Assembly: GCA_005223375.1 (NCBI GenBank)
Contig: RXOD01004838.1
Span: 1 to 17,808 of the forward strand
Direction: 5' to 3'
From: Amoebophrya sp. AT5.2
Lineage: Eukaryota; Sar; Dinophyceae; Syndiniales; Amoebophryaceae
DNA length: 17,808 nucleotides
Position 1 is the stretch's first letter. The number at the start of each line of letters is the position of its first letter. Below are positions 2,488 through 17,651 of the stretch, piece by piece. Made by a program: the position numbers and the translations under genes. Below the pieces are notes generated by a model that saw only the letters and a list, made by a program, of their open reading frames with translations, was not told where the DNA came from and ran no database searches.

Positions 2488-3372
2488 CTAGATATAGCCC
2501 AAGACGCCGCCCTCCTGGTTGAAGGCGCCAACGCCCTCCATGGTGGGGGTGAGTCCCTTCTTCCCGAGCTTCCAGCTCGCCGGACACACCTGCTTGTTGC
2601 CGTCCGCGATCGACTTCTCGTGGAACTGCAAACCGTCCAGCAGCCGCAGAGGCTCGTCCAAGTTACCTGTATTCATTCAAAATTTGTCGTCCTCGTGGTA
2701 CACCATCAATCATGGCATCGTACTAGCATAGTAAGCTATTTGGTTACTACTTACTAGCGGCTCTAAGTGAGGTAGTACTAAAAATCATCGGAAAAATGTA
2801 GAAAAGGTAAAAATCGGTACGTCCAAGGGGGTCGCAGTTCTTGTGCTCCGCTCGGACGATGCCGTCCTTGTCGATCAAGAACACGCCGCGGGCGCACAAG
2901 CCGTCCGGCTGCAGGACGTCGTACGCGGCCGCGATCTCCTTCGTCTTGTCGCCAATCATGGGGTACCTTTAGAATTAATTTGAGGTTCTACAACTTGTTG
3001 TAACCAGATAGCTGAGAAATTGAAATAGATAACTTAGAAGAAAAGAACTAGATCTAGAGAGAAAGGTGGTGGAGCATCGGTATACTTGATGTCTCCGATG
3101 CCTCCGAGTTCTTTCGGCAGCAGCTTCCAGCCCTTGTGTGCGTGGTGGGTGTCCGTGGAAACGCCCAGAATCGCGCAGTTACGCTTCTCGAATTCGGGAA
3201 GGAGTTTGTCGAAGCCCGGGACCTCCGACGCGCAGACGAAGGTGAAATCAGCCGGCCAGAAAAAGAGAATCACGTACTTGCCCTTGTAGTCGGAGAGCGA
3301 CACCTCCTTGAAAGAATTGTCCGGCATGCAAGCCAGGCACGTAAACGCGGGAGCCGCCTGGTCGATCAACAT
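2488..3372 (-). CDS. PRX: Typical 2-Cys peroxiredoxin (AhpC/Prx1 type), three exons
   Basis: Thiol peroxidase that reduces H2O2 and alkyl hydroperoxides using a peroxidatic and a resolving cysteine; normally thioredoxin-linked. Exons on the minus strand are 3372-3086, 2966-2821 and 2666-2488, giving 203 residues, the usual length (about 195-205). The introns are GT-AG with consistent phase. Residues 37-47 contain the active-site block PADFTFVC: Pro40, Thr44 and peroxidatic Cys47. Arg122 and Arg145 are candidates for the conserved arginines; the latter sits in PLGR. The resolving Cys172 is in QVCPASWK near the C-terminus. A GGIG motif is present near residue 91 (GGLG in hyperoxidation-sensitive enzymes), but the tail ends in GYI without the usual YF motif. 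The residues after Cys47 are A-S-E instead of the usual P-T-E. No targeting peptide is seen, so it is probably cytosolic. The ATG at 3372 gives the family-typical N-terminus MLIDQAAPAF; a CAG 13 bases upstream could be a cis- or trans-splice acceptor. Confidence 0.93.
2667..2820 (-). other. Peroxiredoxin intron 2 (154 bp, GT-AG)
   Basis: The donor is CTTGGAC|GTACCGA and the acceptor AATACAG|GTAACTT. Splicing rebuilds PLGR-NLDEPLRLLDGLQF, the conserved segment of typical 2-Cys peroxiredoxins. The octamer CTTGGACG occurs on both sides of the intron (2820-2827 and 2655-2662). Confidence 0.92.
2967..3085 (-). other. Peroxiredoxin intron 1 (119 bp, GT-AG)
   Basis: The donor on the minus strand reads ATCAA|GTATACC and the acceptor TTCTAAAG|GTACCCC. 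Removal joins AA and G to give the family-typical DIKYPMIGDK. Pyrimidine-rich stretches lie in the first half of the intron. A GTA triplet follows both junctions. Confidence 0.92.
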
Positions 3373-4061
3373 CTTTTCGTCTTGTCTGCGCCAGGTATTA
3401 GAAGTGTCTGGGTAGTAGTAGAAATGATAACGTAAAAAAGAGCCTTTTGTTCTCTTCAGAGTCACTGGCTTTTTCTTTTCGGGAAGAAAATAAATGCGCA
3501 AAAAATTATTTTCGCTGTCACAGCCTCCAATGCATCTTGGTTCGTCAATTTGTTTAGTTATGATCAAGATCATTTTTCAGGACGGGATCGATGGATTCAG
3601 GATCTTGTCGTCGCATTTGTGTGGCATCTGCGATCCGGAGGCGCAGAACCTCTTCGTCACGATCGCGGAGAGGTCTTTCTCGAGGGCTGCTGTTCACCAC
3701 ATTTCTTGCGGCATCCCCGACGCAGTGAAACTCGACAGCGGGCGACGAAAGTCATGTGTGAGCGGTGCGTCACATTCCGAGTATTGCGGATTCAATCGAG
3801 AATAAAAATACGGTCAACTACTACAGTGGCGCAGCAGAGTTTGCAATCGAAACATGTGACATTGATTCGTGTTGCTTTGCTTGAAGGACGTGGTTGTTCC
3901 GGAGAGGGAAATAGGCTAAGGCTCTTCGATGGTCCGCGCCGAATCGCTACCAGACGGCGAAGTGGAGCCTTCAGTTTCATCTCACATGACCAGCTTAAGC
4001 GGCGCGTAGCGACCCTAAGTAACTTGACATCGGCCCGACAACTCCGAGGAGGAGCTTTTAG
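3373..4061. other. Intergenic region between peroxiredoxin 5' end and zinc-finger gene 3' end
   Basis: About 690 bp holding the peroxiredoxin promoter and 5' leader and the zinc-finger 3' UTR. Several open frames cross it on both strands, including a 171-codon plus-strand frame at 3550-4065. None has a recognisable motif, and the longest overlaps the real zinc-finger exon in antisense. No RNA gene or repeat was seen. Confidence 0.5.
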
Positions 4062-9088: not shown

Positions 9089-12000
9089 TTAGTCCGGGCT
9101 TAGCAGGTTTAGGGTGTGCAGCAAATCGTTCTCGCTGGGGTTGTAAGTGCCGAACCTCCCGCTTTCCACACGCGCCTTCATTTCGCGAACGTACCTCAAC
9201 AGGCTGCGCAACCCGAACAGGTACCCCTCGTCCCTGTCGACTTCTTGTTCCGCTCGCACGCAGACGAACTTGCCTTTTTTTTTTTCGCGGTTTTCGAGCA
9301 ACTTCGCGCGCAGCTCCCTCCGCTTCTTCGTCTCTGGCAGCACGGGTCCTCCGGTCGCCCCCGGTAGTTGGTCAGCCTGATGATCTTCGTCTTCCTCCGC
9401 TTTTTCAGTGGCGCTAGGGGCGGCCGTCACCAGGCTCCTTTGCGTTTGTCGGTTTGTGGTCGCCATCCGATGCCTTTCCATTTCCTTGAGTCTTGCCTCC
9501 TCGTATTCGGCTCCATCGAATTTTTGGACCTCATCCTTGTCGTTAGCGCCGTCGAACAGCTTTGCCAACTTTCTGTCCACCTCCGCGTCGTATCGCCGAA
9601 AGTCCTCGAAGTTAGCCTTGGTGATCTGCAGTTGCTCAGGAAGCTGCGCGCGAAGTTCGTCTTCAGGATGGACTTCGTGCGGAACACGCTCAGCTGCTGT
9701 TAGAGGTCACGAAAACCCATCTGGTGATCCATCTCGTGAAAATGTGACGAATGGCCCAGAAATTGGCGAGGGACCACGCCCGGCAGAGCATGGGAACCAA
9801 CGGGCACTGGTTCCCGAGCGCGAGCACTACGGGGCAGCCTGCTGCTGCATCACGGCCCATTCCGTCCGGCAGATGTCGAAGCTTTCCCTGTGGTTCACTA
9901 CGAAGCCTATGCGGCACTCCTAGGGTTGGCACTCCTGCACAAAGAAACGCCACCACGCCCCGAAGAGCAAGCTAGCCACGAACTGCAAGGCCCCGGCGGT
10001 GGTCCCGCGTCCGGCGAGCACCAGAGCCACACCGTTCCAACATTTTCACGAGATGCTACTAGAGATGCGTTTTCGTGAGCCTTAATGCTGGTTTCGTGTC
10101 CCTTTCGACTTCTTGTTCCGCTCGCACGCCATGAGACGAAGAAGCGGAGGGAGCTGCGCGCGAAGTTGCTGCAGAAGCTTCAGGATGGACTTCGTGCGGA
10201 ACACGCTCAGCTGCTGGTTTCGTATCAAGGGACCAGCGATGGTAAGTGGCCGACACTCTGGTGAGTGCTGCGTAATCGGTCCCCACTTGGCGATGGCGGA
10301 TTTTTGCCCTAGGTCGGCGCGAGTGCGCAAGGCGCTCTGAGCCAGTAGCTAGAATCAACGGCGCTGGAAGACGAGCAGTATGAAGGCAGGGCAAAATCAT
10401 GGGGCACCTAGAGTGGCGCTTTCTTGTTCGCTGCGTGGTGGTGCAAGGTTGCCAGGGTTGCCGACCGCGGAAGGCCGCGGTTTGTCCTAGTACTGCAGGG
10501 GAATCCAATTCCAAAAAAGCCCCGCAAAAATTTCACTTACAGGCACTTGCCACCTGGTCCCGACATAAGTTGCTTCTTCGCGCGGAACAAGATGTCCATG
10601 CACGTCTTCCTCTTCCGCCCGAACCCCATGATCCATTTGTTTCTGGTTCATCGCGTTCTGCTTGTGCTCGATCGGAAACGCATGCGCAAAATCGATCAGG
10701 TAGACCCAGAGGGTCGCTAGGGGGTCGGCCATATCGTAGACGAACAGCAGCGACGACGAAAACAGCTTGTAGCAGGGTGCCGTTTTGAGGATTAGGTAGA
10801 TCTCGCCGAGGAGTGTTTCCACCTTGGAGAGCATCTGCAGTTTCAAAACCTTGTTTTTCTCCGCGTCCGCGAAATCGGGACTAGCCTCCAAGAACTTGTC
10901 CAACACCTGCTTGGAGGAAGCGTGGCCGTCTTTCTTGTTCGGCTTCGGGTTCGCGTTCGGGGCAGGTTTCGTTTTGTCGGCCGTGTCGTCCTCCTCGGAC
11001 GAGTTCGCAGTTTTTATTCTGGCGGATGTTGTTGATGGTGAAGTTGCCCCTGCCGCGGCGGCAGTCGTGCTGGCAGCCGTCGCTGCGACGGATGTAGCGG
11101 CCGTGGCAACAGTCGCGCGGTCTAGCGAGGAAGAACTTTCTTGCGACCACGGCTGCTGAGATTTCGTCTGGGAGGTACTCGTCGTCGTCCTCGTCGTACT
11201 GCCGGCGCTTCCCGGCTCCTTCTCCTTCCCCAGCGCCAACCTGCGCGCCCGGTTCGCGTTTTCGAAGGTGATGTCCTCCACGAACTTAAAGAAGATCTCG
11301 AGTGCGTGCAAAACGGTGCGCTCGTCGAGCTTAAGGCCCCACTGGGAGTCCTTTTTGGAGACGCGAATGATCTTCTCCATCTTTCTCGTGCTCGCCGATG
11401 CTCCTGTCGGGGGCGGTCCTGGTCCATCGAAGTTGCCGCTGTTCCGCGTCGACGGATTGGCACTTGGGTAGGCCGAGGGGGGCGATCCGGTGGAGGTCGC
11501 CTCGCCGACACTCTCTGGGCAGATCGCGGACGACGACGTCGGCGGACTCCTCAAGTTCACAATTTTCTCAAGCGAACTCGCCTTGCTTGACCGCTGGTAA
11601 GGAACCAAAGTGGTTTCGGGCCTCGTCGGGGGGCTTTTTAATATCCTGGCTTCCTCACGACCACGGCGATCTGCTTCTTCGGGAGAATCTTCTGGATTGT
11701 TCCGGCCGTGCGGTGGTTGGGCAGAAACAGGATCACTGCGGGGGGACAATGGGGGCACGAAAGCAGGGGCGTCCACTGGTTTCGTGTCCACCGGTAGTTG
11801 ATGTGTGGTTAGCATACCAGTGCCCAACGACGACCCCAGCGCGGCTACTTCTTTCGTCGCTCTCCGCGACGAGCGTCCCGACGCGGGAGACCACGAGCGA
11901 CCGCTCCCAGCAGGAGCGGGGTTTTGTTTGAAGTGCAGCCGCATGATTCGCGTGAACTTCATGCCGACGACGCGAAATCCCAACTTCGACTGCAACGGGT

Positions 12001-15000
12001 ACTTTTCGATGCATTTTTGCTTCTTGCTCTGGCTCGCCAGCGGGTCGTAGGTTTGCTGCCCGATCTTGATATCGCACACGCAGGGCAGCACCATGCCCCA
12101 CGTGACGTCCTCCAACACCAAGTACGTGTTCGCGAGCCGCCGCCGTTTCTGGTCGCGGTGGTGCTCGTCCTGGAACAAGTTCGACCGCGACCCGGAGGGC
12201 GCTCCCGCTGGGCCATGATGGCCATAATATCCGTACCCGGCGTGGTAGCTCCCGTGATAGTATCCGTACAGATTCGTGGTGGTGGGCCGCGCGCCTGCGC
12301 CTGCGGCACTTGGTCCGGTATACGAGCCCGCGCGCCTGCCGCCGACATACAAGCCCCCCCGCCGTTGTTCCGGGGCAGGTCCACGCACACCACTTGCGGG
12401 CGAGCCCGAACCCCCGCAGGTGCCGTGCGTGGACCTGCCCCGCGCGCCGGCCCCCGGTGCCGCGTGAGAGATCGAGCTGCGCATGTGCGGCAGCGACCGA
12501 ATGCGGGAGACCCCGAGTGGCCTACTCGAAGACGAACCCGTGGCAGCATTGTGTAGGTGGAACCCACCGCCCGGCAGGGGTGGGGGGCCACCTCCGGGGT
12601 TCGACATGTTCGTTGATTCTTCACTGAAACAGCCCGCTTGACTGCCGGCGTTCGACAGTTTGCTCCTACCGTCCAGCATTCTCAACATGCCTCCTTTTAG
12701 GTCGCTGGCAGATGCAGTCGAGGGGTGCTGGTTGCTGCTTTCTAGTTTATGACGGTGGATGAAGGACGAGTTGTAGCCATAGCCGCGCCCGAAGCCGGAC
12801 GCCGAGCGCGAATGGTGTACACGAGCCGGCGAATTTCCATTCGCCCCCGGCCGATCTGGGCTTGATGAAGACGCTGCTGCTGCATCTTCAAGCCCTGTTC
12901 CTACGGCCGGGTCGCCAGCAAAAGTGAAGGTGCGATCGCGCGGCGACGACAGCTGCGTCATGCGATTGAGCAAGGTCGTGTCCCGCGGGGTGTACAGTGG
13001 ATCGATATTGTAGGAGGCCGTAACGCTCGTCACGGACTGGGGGGAGTCTTCCGTACCCTCGCCATCGGAAGCGGGGTCGCTGAACAGAGACATGCTTTGA
13101 ATCACGTGGGTCTCCGGCAGCTCACCAGCAGTGTTCAGGCGGCCGGGATCATTATTCCGGACCAGCGGGAGGTGGTCGCTCTTGAGAAAGTGTAGGGGGG
13201 GCAGGAGACCACCGGTTTGTTCCGCGACCGCGATACCGTCCTGCGGGGACAACACGCGGGGACCCGCAACCTCAGGAAGGCCAGCCGTACCCGCGGGGCT
13301 TTGGCGATGGTGCGGGGGCAGGTACCGGCGATCCCTCCTCCGGCTCGGGGAATCCTGGAGGGCCTGCACCTCACCGCTTCTGACAAAATCGGTAAGTTCG
13401 GACCTATCTTCCTGATCTGCGCTGTTTGCGCGGTCCTTTTTTGCGCCAGCCCGCATGGACGCTTCATCTGCTACTAGGAAATCATCCACGCGACCGCGAA
13501 TTGGTGGAGCTCGTGGAGACAGTCTGCGGTCATCGTCCACTTGCGTGGCTGCGATCTTGCTGGTACTGCCGAATCCGGGGAGCGTTCGCACAACGCCAGG
13601 AGCGGCTATGTTCGCTGCCGCAGCTGCTCTGGGCCCTCTCCCCGCGTACGGGCCCAGTCGAACCACATTCGGGTCGTCCTCATCGGCATCCATCACATTG
13701 TTCTCCTCGGCGACGCGGATTTCGTGGTCACTTCTGTCGTCCTTCTCCTCTTCGCTTTGTGGTAATTCCACCTCTTCCTCCCGTATCGTAGCGGGACTGT
13801 TTATCGTCGGCGGCGAGCGCAAGTTCGATTCTTTACTTGACCGCCGACCTGCTGCGCCAACCACGTTTAGCGTCCTTGCCGGAGAGGCCGTGGCTGTCGT
13901 TTGCTGCTTCCCCGGTGACGAAAAAGACGAGGGCGCGCGCTGCAATATGGGCGAATGCCATGGGTGTGCTGGATCATTCTCACGCCCGTCATTAACGGCT
14001 CCATCGTTGTTCAACTCCCCGATCCCATGGGGGCCGTTCGTCAGCTCGGTGTTGCGCGATCTCCTGCCGCTCTCCACTTCGCCACCTGGGTGGTCCAGAT
14101 CAACACTCCCGCCCCCGTCATCTGCAGGACCCAGGCCTAGCATTCCCGGTGCGAAATTCAGTACTCCTTCCCCGACGTAGTACGAGTCCAAACTGCTCGG
14201 AAACCTTGTTCCTCCTTCTTCACCCCCGTCTCCGGTGCTCTTGTTTCGTGCAGACGTTGCCAGCGGCTCCTGGCCCGTGTCACTCGCTGGCGAACTCAAC
14301 ACCAGGCTGCCGACCAACGATTCGACGTCCGAGAAGTGCTTTGCGTAGTAGTCTGCCTCGTACCCGAAGTCGTTGTATTCGGTCCACGGAATGCCTCCAC
14401 GAAAGCTGTCGAAGTAGCTATCCAGTGCGCCTGGTACTAGAGCGGGACCACCTGCGCTGCCCCTGCTGTCCTCCTCCGTCACCTCCTCCGCAGTTGTACC
14501 GGTGCCGGTTCGCGTGTCGATGTCATGTACCTGCTGGCTTCGCCTGCGGTTGACTTCCCGGATCATACCGTGGTCACCGTCTCCTGCATCGGTCATCGTC
14601 TCCTGTAATAATATTGAAGGTCCTGGTGGCTGTATCTTCTCGCCGGGTCCCTGCGTTGGCTCGGACGTCATGCTGCGAGTGTACACCTTCGCGAGATTTT
14701 CAAAGTAGGTGTTGTCGTGCTCATCTCGCGCCTCGCCTTCCTCCGAAAAGCCGCTATCCTCGCCGTCCATCGTGATCGTCCGTTGGGGTGCTACAGGTTT
14801 CGCCGACTTGGACTTGCCGCCGGAACCGCTGCTGTGGGAGTTTTTTCGCCCGAACATCTTGGCGGAGTTGCTTCCCCCGAGCTTGCTGGCCGCTCCTGCC
14901 GGTAAAGGTCCTCCGTTCAACCCGAACTGCACCAGCTGGAGGTCCTCCGTTACCGCCGCGATCGAGTTCATCTCCCCGATCGAGTCTTCGATCGGAACTA

Positions 15001-17651
15001 ACCGCGGTTCTTCCCGGCCGGTCGTTGTCGCGCGCGTAAGCTTGTAGTCGAAGTCGCGGTGGTCGTTAACGATCACGTTTTTCGTGCCGGTCAGAGCGAT
15101 GTCGGAAAGTATGGGGGACGACGGATCGAACAAGAGGTCCTCCAGGGGACCGACGGATAGCGACGGATTATGGTCGCCGCCTCGGCGCGGGCTCTCCGAT
15201 CGGCCGCCCACCTCCTCGTTCACATCATGATTACACCGCTCTGAAGATGATGCTGCGGCTGCTGGCGATTTCTGCTTTGATGCCCCCACCTCTGTTCGGT
15301 TTGGCTCGCCCAAGTCATCGTCATGCTGTTGTTCCTCGTCCTCGTGGTCCTCCCTGCTGCGGGTGCGCGTACGAGCGAGGAGCGCGGCGTACTGCACTGC
15401 CGAGAAGGCTTCATTCAGGTTCACGCTGCTAGCGGGAATTGGTTGCGTGTCCCACACAGTACTCGACGAGGACACAGAAGCACCGGTCAATGTCCGCTCC
15501 TGCACCAGAGCGGGCTCCTCGCGCGGCACTTGTGCCGTCTCCGAAAAGGGACCGGTGGACGTCGCAGCGACCGTGCCCCGCGCTGGCGTTGCCCCCGCAG
15601 GAGGAATTTCTATTTGTGGGGGGTCTCGTTCTGGGGTGTCTGACGTGTTCATCTGCACCGAAGCCACTCGCTTTTCGACTTCTTTTTCCACTGGTGCTTC
15701 CGCTACGGAAAAGGTGACTGCGGGGGCAGCGCCATCGGCGGTTGAGGGTGGACGCGGAGCGCAGTCGCGTTTTGCATCGGCCTCGTCGCTTCCCTGCGCT
15801 TGTGATTGTGATGTTGGTTCCTCTTGCGACAGGACGTCCAGCGTAGCAACGACGAGCCTAATATTCTGATCCGCGACTCCCGAAGCAGAGCTGCTGTCGC
15901 CTGATTTCTTTTCGGCCACTTCTTCAGGAAGTCTCTTGTTGCTGAAATGGACACCCGCGGTGCCGACGTCGCCGATTTTGGTGAGCGGCGCAAACGCTCC
16001 CTGCGAAGTAGATGAGCCCCCGTCGCTGTGGTCCGCAGATTTAGTCTGTGCTCCACCAGGAGCACCTGCCCGCAGTGGAGGATCAAACTTTCGAGGGGTT
16101 GGACTTGGGGGACTTCTTCCCGACGTCGTGACCATGTCCGGAGAGCTGCGACTCGCATGGATTATTCCCGGCGGGAAAATTTCGCTTGCGCGAGCCGCAC
16201 ATGGGCGTTGCTTCGACGGCGAGCAGACGTTGTTCAATCTTGTCGTGGTCATCTGTTGGGGACCAGCGCCGTCGCGCTGAAGATCTGGAAGTGCGATGCG
16301 AATCAATTAAAGATGAAATAGTACAAACCATCGCGTACTGGAAAAAAGTTATGTACATCGCCCCAAGTTCCAGTCGATGTCGTCGAGGCTCATTCTGGTT
16401 GACGACGACGAGCCGCTGTCTTTGTTTACCGGTGCCCAGGTGTAGCACGATTGCCCCGTCACCAGTCTCGTCAGTGTGCGTTCCTCGCCGCTTATGCAAC
16501 GGAAATGTGTCCGTGTGGGTGTCCCGAAAAAGTAAAAGAACGCAGGGAGGAGCTTCGTGAAGTCTATGGCTCGTGGGCCAAATTTCCTAGAGCTCAATAG
16601 GTCCCGCTCCCAGTCTGAATGTCAAGGAAGCTGGGATATATTTCGTCGGGGTGTACTAGCAGCGAGTTAGGACACGGCATACTGTGCGGGAAAGGTTCTG
16701 CTCGGGGTCCGAATCAAAGTCTCCTGTCCGACGCACCTCCCCGACACACAGCTAGCCATCGGAGACTACGAGTACGAGCGCAACCATCTTCCCGAGCTCC
16801 TGAGAAATAAGTTGGACACCAAGACAAATTTCCTCTGCATACCGAAGACCGTGTCGGACTGGTGCTGGTCGTTCAAAAGCTGGAGCTTCATCAGGCTACC
16901 GCTTGACGCGGTCGTGGTGCCCCCCTGCTGAGCGGTGCTCCCCGCCGCCGTGCCGACGCTCAATCCCGACGATCCGCCGGCCGTGCTGAGCCTTTGGTGA
17001 AAGTGATCTGGGCCTTCGGCCGCGCGGCCGCCGCCGCGGCCACTGCCATGTTGATGGGGAAACAGTGTCGATGGGAGACTGCCGGGAGACCCAGTGGAAG
17101 TGTTGGTTGAGTACTCGATGCGCTGGATCAGCTTCTTCCGCTGGTCCTTTCCGTAAAACTTGGGAAGAAACTTCAACAGCGTCAGAGGGGGCGCGGAAGG
17201 CTGCTGATGGCATTGATGGGCGAGGTCTGCTTCAGGGGGATAGGCAAAGGGGGCTTCGAAAGTAGCGCTACTGGCGCCGGCCAACAGCGAGGACGTGGTT
17301 GCCGTGAACTGGCTGGTCTTGTTTGTGCTGGCGTCGTTGTTCGTCGTGACCCCGCTGTCAGCGGCGAGCGTGCTATCAGTAGGGTCATTTTTAGGCAACA
17401 CGGGCGAAGTCGCATCTTCCGCCCCCGCTGCAGGAGGAACCAGATTCTCGCGGCCCCCGCCCTGCTTATTTCCAGCAGCACGTCCGCCGTCGAATTGGTT
17501 GTTCATGAAACGGTAAAATTCGTACTCGATCCGCCCCCGCGACTTCGTCCGTCCCTCGGCCTGCTCCCGCTCCGACAAACCCAGCCACGGCTTGTAAACG
17601 CGGCCGTTGTTTACAGGTTGGGTTTGTTCATATTTCGAAAAACATTCATAT
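9089..17651 (-). CDS. IPMK: Giant inositol polyphosphate multikinase-like protein (IPK family), at least four exons, probably 5'-partial
   Basis: The IPK family phosphorylates inositol polyphosphates, feeding IP4/IP5 and pyrophosphate signalling. Proposed exons (minus): 17651-16843, 16284-10541, 10430-10086 and 9694-9089, about 2,500 residues. Family blocks occur in the right order: NGRVYKPW (17585-17608, candidate ATP-site Lys), EYEFYRF (about 17509-17529), FLPKFYG (17150-17170), LEDVTWGM (about 12095-12118), the catalytic PxxxDxKxG as PCVCDIKIG (12059-12085) followed by QQTYDPLAS and KYPLQSKLGFRVVGM, SSSLLFVYD (about 10730-10760), LIDFAHAF (10673-10699) and DEGYLFGL (9209-9232). Between these lie long Ser/Gly/Pro/Arg-rich disordered insertions: about 1,490 residues between FLPKFYG and LEDVTW, and about 310 between DFAH and DEGY. 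QTYDPLAS and the DFAHxFP..DEGY pattern favour the multikinase over the hexakinase branch. Exon A's 5' limit is uncertain, and the expected N-terminal GH motif is not seen, so further exons probably lie beyond the right edge. The junction between the second and third exon is the least certain. Confidence 0.82.
9695..9699. repeat. Target-site duplication, left copy (tgctg)
   Basis: This pentamer matches 10086-10090 on the other side of the element. In the element-free duplicate it occurs once (10212-10216), as expected for a target duplication created on insertion. Confidence 0.75.
9700..9744. repeat. Left terminal inverted repeat of the introner-like element
   Basis: A 45-bp end sharing 35 positions with the reverse complement of 10041-10085. 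The mismatches cluster at positions 4-7 and 24-30; the blocks tcacgaaaac and catctcgtgaaaatg are fully conserved. Sequence similarity stops sharply after position 45. Confidence 0.85.
10041..10085. repeat. Right terminal inverted repeat of the introner-like element
   Basis: Inverted partner of 9700-9744. The outermost bases are TTA on each end (read inward from each side). No similarity continues into the flanks apart from the tgctg direct repeat. Confidence 0.85.
10086..10090. repeat. Target-site duplication, right copy (tgctg)
   Basis: Direct repeat of 9695-9699. On the coding strand it reads CAGCA. Because the junction repeat is identical, the exact splice point can slide over five bases, and none of the positions gives GT-AG, GC-AG or AT-AC ends. 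Confidence 0.75.
10101..10226 (-). repeat. Tandem coding duplication (126 bp, 42 codons) in the kinase gene, upstream unit
   Basis: The unit encodes DTKPAAERVPHEVHPE, then an Ala/Ser-rich stretch, then VRAEQEVER. It is followed directly by a second unit that starts DTKPA, is interrupted by the introner-like element, resumes AERVPHEVHPE at 9694 and ends VRAEQEVDRD at 9230-9261. The DNA blocks are 10178-10216 versus 9661-9699 (39 bp identical) and 10098-10129 versus 9230-9261 (31 of 32). The middle of the upstream unit (10134-10170) is an inverted copy of 9297-9333. Confidence 0.85.
10431..10540 (-). other. Kinase-gene intron B (110 bp, GT-AG), acceptor provisional
   Basis: The donor CAAGTGCCT|GTAAGTG is the best consensus donor in the window. 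The acceptor CCACCACGCAG|CGAACAAG is the one that fits phase 0 into the frame leading to the C-terminal kinase motif; another phase-0 option is GCTCAGAG near 10330. The intron contains a short perfect hairpin, accgcgg-aagg-ccgcggt, at 10464-10481. Confidence 0.55.
12371..12442. repeat. Long hairpin inside the kinase coding exon (72 bp)
   Basis: The 18 bases cggggcaggtccacgcac at 12371-12388 are perfectly reverse-complementary to 12425-12442. After a 2-base mismatch, 12391-12400 pairs with 12413-12422 with one mismatch, leaving a 12-base loop. The hairpin lies in the Gly/Arg/Ser-rich insertion just N-terminal to the catalytic motif and is 24 codons long, so its loss or splicing would keep the frame. 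Confidence 0.85.
16285..16842 (-). other. Kinase-gene intron A (558 bp, GT-AG)
   Basis: The donor is GTCTTCG|GTATGCA and the acceptor CACTTCCAG|ATCTTCAG. Both are phase 1, giving DTVF-D-LQRDGAG across the junction. The 5,744-base exon that follows has no early ATG requirement, because its frame opens upstream of any Met (first ATG at 16252). An internal exon is possible: a minus-strand frame at 16349-16597 contains a candidate donor GCGAT|GTACATA. I left it in the intron for lack of a family match. Confidence 0.65.

Follow-up and report, generated by a model that had tools for sequence, protein, structure and literature searches.

Introners of the A25 type in Amoebophrya have inverted-repeat ends that begin with TTA and two purines, with a conserved G ending the repeat. 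Their inverted repeats are 8–20 nt long, direct repeats of 3–5 nt lie at the exon boundary, and a hairpin fold has been proposed for them (Farhat et al., 2021; PMC7789003). Introners elsewhere in eukaryotes bear, like the elements described here, the signature of non-autonomous DNA transposons and make introns within exons, as far as the excerpted text of that survey goes (Gozashti et al., 2022; PMC9860276). Dinoflagellate introners have been treated as well (Roy et al., 2023, as cited in an excerpt of PMC11453091). In the SOS splicing of animals, as relayed in an excerpt of PMC13247085, a transposon likewise leaves the message outside GT-AG splicing (Zhao et al., 2026). For strain AT5, introns were reported to be 99.98% GT-AG (PMC7789003), and the odd elements were inferred, in the excerpted text of a 2025 paper, to occur in only part of the genus (PMC12005148). 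No report of introners in AT5 was found in the literature, which, in the portions available, describes AT5 introns as canonical.

The stretch of DNA analysed here, 17,808 nucleotides in length and referred to below as the window, carries in an inositol polyphosphate kinase gene one member of a class of elements that recurs in the same genome. These elements are probably transposons of the introner superfamily, copies of which would be removed from the message as the element plus one copy of its target duplication, by directional splicing that acts on asymmetric tips. They resemble the A25 type in their TTA-plus-two-purine ends, the direct repeat at the boundary, the non-canonical dinucleotides at their predicted boundaries, the proposed hairpin fold and the strain-specific families. 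They differ from it in arms of up to 46 bp, as against 8–20 nt, in a duplication that is sharply 5 bp, and in asymmetric tips with a locked orientation.

The genome is neither that of A25 nor that of A120 and is likely AT5-like. Its GC content is 57% in the window and 57% in a 50-kb sample of the genome, compared with 55.9% in AT5, 47.8% in A25, and 51.2% in A120 (PMC7789003). The 2025 genome of a Karlodinium parasite is 65.2% AT, and the accompanying table, in the excerpt available, gives AT5 as 54.5% AT, at odds with the 55.9% GC given in two other papers (PMC12005148). The A25 and A120 orthologues of a phosphatase encoded at one sister locus (L062, discussed below) are 70–74% identical to its protein. 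The elements fit the published A25-type introners of Amoebophrya, here in a genome that resembles that of AT5.

An inverted-repeat element in the kinase gene

On the minus strand, from which the kinase gene is read, the element has the layout CAGCA-TTAAGG...CTCTAA-CAGCA (Table 1). An earlier note on this DNA had described a transposon-like intron with inverted termini and a tgctg pentamer on either side, and this description was borne out: both pentamers are exact, and the arms, given in the note as 45 bp with 35 matching positions, extend to 46 bp with 36 matches. The inverted ends start with TTAAGG and TTAGAG, that is, TTA and two purines, as in A25-type introners. The 5-bp duplication, the inverted ends, and the related copies in the same genome also uphold the note's assignment of the element to the Amoebophrya type of introner. 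With terminal inverted repeats and a target duplication of fixed length, both features of MITEs, it is best explained as a non-autonomous TIR DNA transposon. A scan of the window for an exact 5-bp duplication combined with TTA-starting inverted ends (11/14 positions) matched this element alone and gave no match in 20 Markov shuffles. When the ends could start with any bases but had to match at 12/14 positions, nothing was found in the window.

The duplication allows six sliding excisions, with the ends TT-CA, AT-GC, CA-AG, GC-CA, AG-AC, and CA-AA. None of the six is GT-AG, GC-AG, or AT-AC, as the earlier note had held for every sliding position; this applies to the element alone and not to the longer intron of a gene model, P0002, discussed below. 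Excision of the element with one pentamer does bring TKPA and AERVPH together in frame and leads on to the DEGYLFGL motif; such a restoration is automatic wherever an insertion into open sequence has duplicated its target.

Table 1. Coordinates of the element, its surroundings in the window, and related copies in the same genome
Feature	Position in the window, or contig	Strand	Length	Target duplication
Introner element, subfamily A	9700..10085	- (sense strand of the kinase gene)	386 bp	
Target duplication copy, 3' side	9695..9699			TGCTG (sense CAGCA)
Target duplication copy, 5' side	10086..10090			TGCTG (sense CAGCA)
5' terminal arm in sense, starts TTAAGG	10040..10085	-		
3' terminal arm in sense, ends CTCTAA	9700..9745	-		
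Inositol polyphosphate kinase gene, open frame (Pfam IPK, 1.1e-28), upstream of the element	10487..16306	-		
Last kinase exon in gene model P0002 (LPEQLQITK...DEGYLFGL...SPD)	9089..9643	-		
GT-AG intron of gene model P0002 (predicted); holds the mosaic and the whole element	9644..10624	-	981 bp	
Exact copy of 9661–9699; second, empty target-site copy	10178..10216		39 nt	
Exact inverted copy of 9297–9334, in the mosaic upstream of the element	10133..10170		38 nt	
Near copy (97%) of 9230–9261, in the mosaic	10098..10129			
Complete copy	C2506		287 bp	GAACA
Complete copy	C1155		370 bp	GAAAT in sense
Complete copy	C2398		477 bp	CACAA/CAAAA
Complete copy	C1247		224 bp	GATCA/GATCC
Further copies	C973, C2199			decayed

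Related elements and their common signature

A search for other copies, which the earlier note had proposed as a check, found the element matched 11 times across 8 contigs, counting the window itself, in an incomplete assembly of 50.7 Mb and 2759 contigs. Truncated copies and copies at contig ends (C359, C141, C2029, C1286, and C178) were left unscored. A second subfamily was recognized at C973 and C2199, with unlike arms, the same tips, and exact duplications (GCCGA and CGGTG, respectively). The earlier claim that the termini define a family was thus narrowed: the asymmetric tips TTAAGG and CTCTAA and the 5-bp duplication are common to subfamilies with unlike arms, whereas the 45-bp arms mark one subfamily only. 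At each of two loci, two introners of different subfamilies lie within about 1 kb in one gene, at 808–1227 and 1367–1674 of L043 (C973) and at 761–1212 and about 1403–1803 of L049 (C2199). By eye, the C2199 gene resembles an MFS-type transporter.

Searches with the pattern TTAAGG...CTCTAA found 115 places at 342–372 bp, 114 at 372–402 bp (the two lists overlap by at least two places), and 42 at 282–312 bp. Controls with the pattern written backwards gave 98, 102, and 86 places, respectively, about equal to the signal or higher, and a symmetric-end control, TTAAGG...CCTTAA at 342–372 bp, gave 3 places against 115, with 128 in its own backwards control. Because the controls were as high and motif frequencies differ between them, raw pattern counts carry little weight and the duplications were relied on instead. 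Among 28 scored places, taken from the first 30 of the 115 in contig order after L060 and L079 fell outside the coordinate filter, 19 had an exact 5-bp duplication and 2 a match of 4/5, giving 21/28 with at least 4/5. Applied to two of the length bands, which together hold 229 places, this proportion suggests, by extrapolation, well over a hundred introners in this genome.

Scans for the duplication were also carried out with shuffled controls. A scan specific for the ends found 6 exact-duplication matches, against 0–1 per shuffle in ten shuffles; five of the six were the window or loci chosen for their likeness to the element, and L033 was the only chance find. A generic scan for target duplications with terminal inverted repeats over 147 kb of loci showed no clear excess of 5-bp duplications (0, 11, and 5, against 0–3, 3–8, and 2–7 in four shuffles), the reason being that positions 4–5 of the two tips do not mirror each other. 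Duplications of 3–4 bp in the same 147 kb numbered 8 against 0–4, 36 against 17–22, and 92 against 46–65, with 0 against 0 in one strict setting. This excess could represent further introner kinds or merely local repeats, and some of the matches are plainly the latter.

The signature of the class was assessed on 37 pooled candidates (9 read by hand and 28 from the pattern), with the main counts drawn from the 28 of these 37 whose duplications match at 4/5 or better. In these 28, the two flanking copies match at 27, 28, 27, 28, and 26 elements across the five positions of the duplication and at 2–15 of 28 outside it, so that the duplication is sharply confined to five positions. Coding potential was scored separately for each flank with a codon model whose training set comprised 27 long open frames totalling 46 kb, the long frames of the window itself among them. 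After removal of the element with 5 bp, the flanks agree in strand and frame in 23/28 cases, where about 1 in 6 is expected by chance, and in 10/10 cases where both flanks score above 8. The agreement is the same 23/28 on removal of the element plus 2, 5, or 8 bp and falls to 0–1/28 at plus 0, 1, 3, 4, 6, or 7 bp. By joint score, 27/28 copies lie in the sense orientation, a few of them weakly, the exception (L067) being weak too, and retention would introduce an in-frame stop in 27/27 sense copies. These counts of frame, orientation, and stops indicate that most of the elements lie in exons, that their orientation is locked, and that the genes could function only if the elements were removed. 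Among the nine candidates outside the main counts, with duplications below 4/5, frame is kept in four with a decayed or no clear duplication (C973A, C2199A, L052, and L069) and is not kept in five.

The asymmetry of the tips is built into the pattern searches, and its independent measure comes from only nine copies found without the end pattern, two of which (C973A and C2199A) had their ends placed by eye. Eight of the nine start with TTAAGG and one with TTACGG, and in all nine the fifth position is G in the 5' arm but A in the 3' arm. Canonical excision is possible in only 6/24 elements with an exact duplication, five by AT-AC and one by GT-AG. The other 18/24 have no canonical pair, unlike the introners of other eukaryotes, whose examples in the excerpted survey carry or recruit splice sites (PMC9860276). 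The earlier note had suggested that the inverted repeats could fold the ends together, and an element's own arms are indeed predicted to pair in 24/24 elements, at −22 to −49 kcal/mol. The own 3' arm is a stronger partner than the median of the other elements' 3' arms in 22/24 cases, falls below the median in L077, and is the best partner in only 6/24. Since the own arm is rarely the best partner and arms are alike within a subfamily, duplex strength alone proves little.

Repeats straddling the copies in the window and at C2506 had prompted the idea that repeat mosaics accompany insertion. Such repeats are present in only 3/28 elements (C1042, C2506, and L053), and the idea was given up as a general rule. 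At L053, the introner is straddled by an exact 38-nt direct repeat. A patchwork at 181–482 of L030 (C330) has an exact 39-nt direct repeat and inverted repeats of 23 and 17 nt and shows no visible introner.

Probable removal from the message and its possible routes

At sister loci, removal of the element with one duplication copy restores conserved proteins. These include a PP2A-type phosphatase (junction EESNATPVR|CPVTVIGDIHGQF), a centrin (KLGDK|ETREG), and an axonemal dynein heavy chain (EKDLAAAM|PALEAA), each of which aligns to a solved structure without a gap at the junction, as does BBS2, restored at a subfamily-A copy, with a one-residue gap five residues upstream. In the best 120 of 422 phosphatase homologues, P0004 among them, no gaps occur in the 25 residues around the junction. 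P0004, the protein from an MMETSP transcript, is the best phosphatase homologue, and the L062 locus matches it at 340/340 aa in four exons. The first gap relative to P0004 consists of the 367-bp introner plus one 5-bp copy (TGCGG), for which canonical excision is impossible; the other two, of 159 and 150 bp, are GT-AG after a two-base slide. Removal of an element together with one duplication, as proposed in the earlier note, is therefore seen at this sister locus. The transcript evidence comes from this one locus, with a source known by its MMETSP name only: one phosphatase message is without the introner and without two ordinary introns, and its donor strain might lack the insertion.

Were the elements plain MITEs that knock out genes, the phosphatase transcript would have come from an insertion-free strain, and it could indeed stem from a different isolate. 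This explanation is nevertheless very improbable, as the genes that hold the copies are strongly conserved and have both flanks in frame, the orientation of the copies is fixed, and the frame persists in four of the nine candidates with weak duplications. Removal from DNA instead of RNA, in some nuclei or stages, would resemble the loss of internal eliminated sequences in ciliates. Alveolate relatives do eliminate internal DNA sequences, and the excision is precise and leaves one duplication copy. However, 27/28 copies share one orientation with respect to the gene, which is unexpected for strand-blind excision, and the published A25 and A120 introns derive from RNA-seq junctions (PMC7789003), so that this route is scarcely credible.

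An RTCB-ligase pathway like that of animal SOS splicing, which cuts transposons from mRNA and ligates with RTCB according to the excerpted source (PMC13247085), could excise the elements with no spliceosome. The elements are transposon-derived, bear inverted repeats, and would be excised non-canonically, all of which agrees with such a pathway. Nonetheless, no RtcB match was found in the 50.7 Mb, where the assembly is incomplete and an intron-broken gene could escape; 9/14 control genomes were matched. Unlike SOS splicing as described in that excerpt, the elements here are also orientation-locked and spread over many genes. The orientation lock and asymmetric tips would constitute a directional signal, superfluous for a reader of a symmetric duplex, and the RTCB route is judged improbable.

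The favoured reading, directional splicing on the tips, would proceed as follows. The copies, probably non-autonomous TIR DNA transposons of the Amoebophrya introner superfamily, insert mostly in coding exons, with a 5-bp duplication and with the TTAAGG end nearly always on the 5' side of the message. The arms would pair in the pre-mRNA and bring the two duplication copies together, directional machinery, most likely a modified spliceosome, would read the asymmetric tips, and the exons would be joined within the duplication. The tips may act through a likeness to consensus signals, TTAAGG to the donor GTAAGT (+2 to +5) and CTCTAA to a branch-site core. Because of the orientation lock, a spliceosome-like reader is preferred to one that recognizes a symmetric duplex and to excision from DNA. 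Searches of the genome for U1 and U2 snRNA gave no match, whereas U6 snRNA gave two strong genes (C954:5337–5443, 107 bits; C1707:2594–2699, 106 bits) and a U1-70K domain was found. Nothing is drawn from the missing U1, because U2 is also unmatched while U6 and U1-70K were found.

It is a tentative and rather doubtful extension that Amoebophrya as a genus, the "GT-AG only" lineage included, possesses a second, directional removal route for transposon-derived introns, which would act on the same transcripts as GT-AG splicing but recognize, in place of splice dinucleotides, the target duplication together with asymmetric tips that pair. If the genome is that of AT5 or close kin, as is likely, the "GT-AG only" picture of AT5 may be an annotation artefact. 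The signature of a 5-bp duplication, TTAAGG...CTCTAA, and sense orientation makes such introns easy to find, and genes with both kinds of intron offer a direct test of the change from transposon to intron without splice dinucleotides.

The window copy and the kinase message

The 5' flank of the window element is a patchwork of local repeats, and the 180 bp upstream of the element have a coding score of −4.1 in the frame used by the earlier note, the lowest left flank among the 28 elements. The EukProt gene model g16289.t1 (P0002) is identical to the window in blocks of 690/690, 453/453, 184/184, and 271/273 residues; its first block gives a gapped alignment at 63%, and its residues 1–165 have no match to the window. 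P0002 splices MDHG to LPEQLQ by GT...AG, taking out 10624–9644. The donors of the model are weak, and GTAAGT at 10540–10535 is unused. The low end of the kinase open frame is probably intron. P0002 also cuts 756 bp (13996–13241) and 444 bp (about 11881–11441), lengths divisible by three, out of a frame that is open throughout, and it is possible that GT-AG introns are over-predicted in it.

According to this model, the window copy would be a passenger, removed together with the mosaic inside one canonical kinase GT-AG intron. This explanation, to which slightly less than an even chance is assigned, gains from the near-identity of P0002 to the window in the four blocks and from a mosaic that has no coding signal in the earlier frame. 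P0002 may, however, be an ab initio prediction, given its weak donors and its cuts from open frame, and it ignores the GTAAGT; the element is also oriented like the exonic copies, though the chance of that is even. Two protein searches with pieces of the kinase found no kinase transcript: the first returned P0002 and the A120 orthologue, and the second, a weak test that used P0002's own junction as query and could detect only proteins of about 154–490 aa, returned nothing.

With respect to the splice proposed in the earlier note, removal of an element with one duplication stands by the sister copy, whereas the splicing of the window copy itself is opposed by the rival 981-bp intron, the lowest left flank, and the lack of a transcript in these searches. 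Independent removal of the window copy is plausible, with about even chances, and would join ACGAAACCAGCA to GCTGAGCGTG across the element; otherwise, the copy is carried within the longer GT-AG intron.

Elsewhere in the window, an exact 37-nt direct repeat occupies 2096–2132 and 2151–2187, 55 bp from start to start. An open frame at 3034–3573 on the minus strand contains FWPADFTFVCASE and resembles an exon of a 2-Cys peroxiredoxin.
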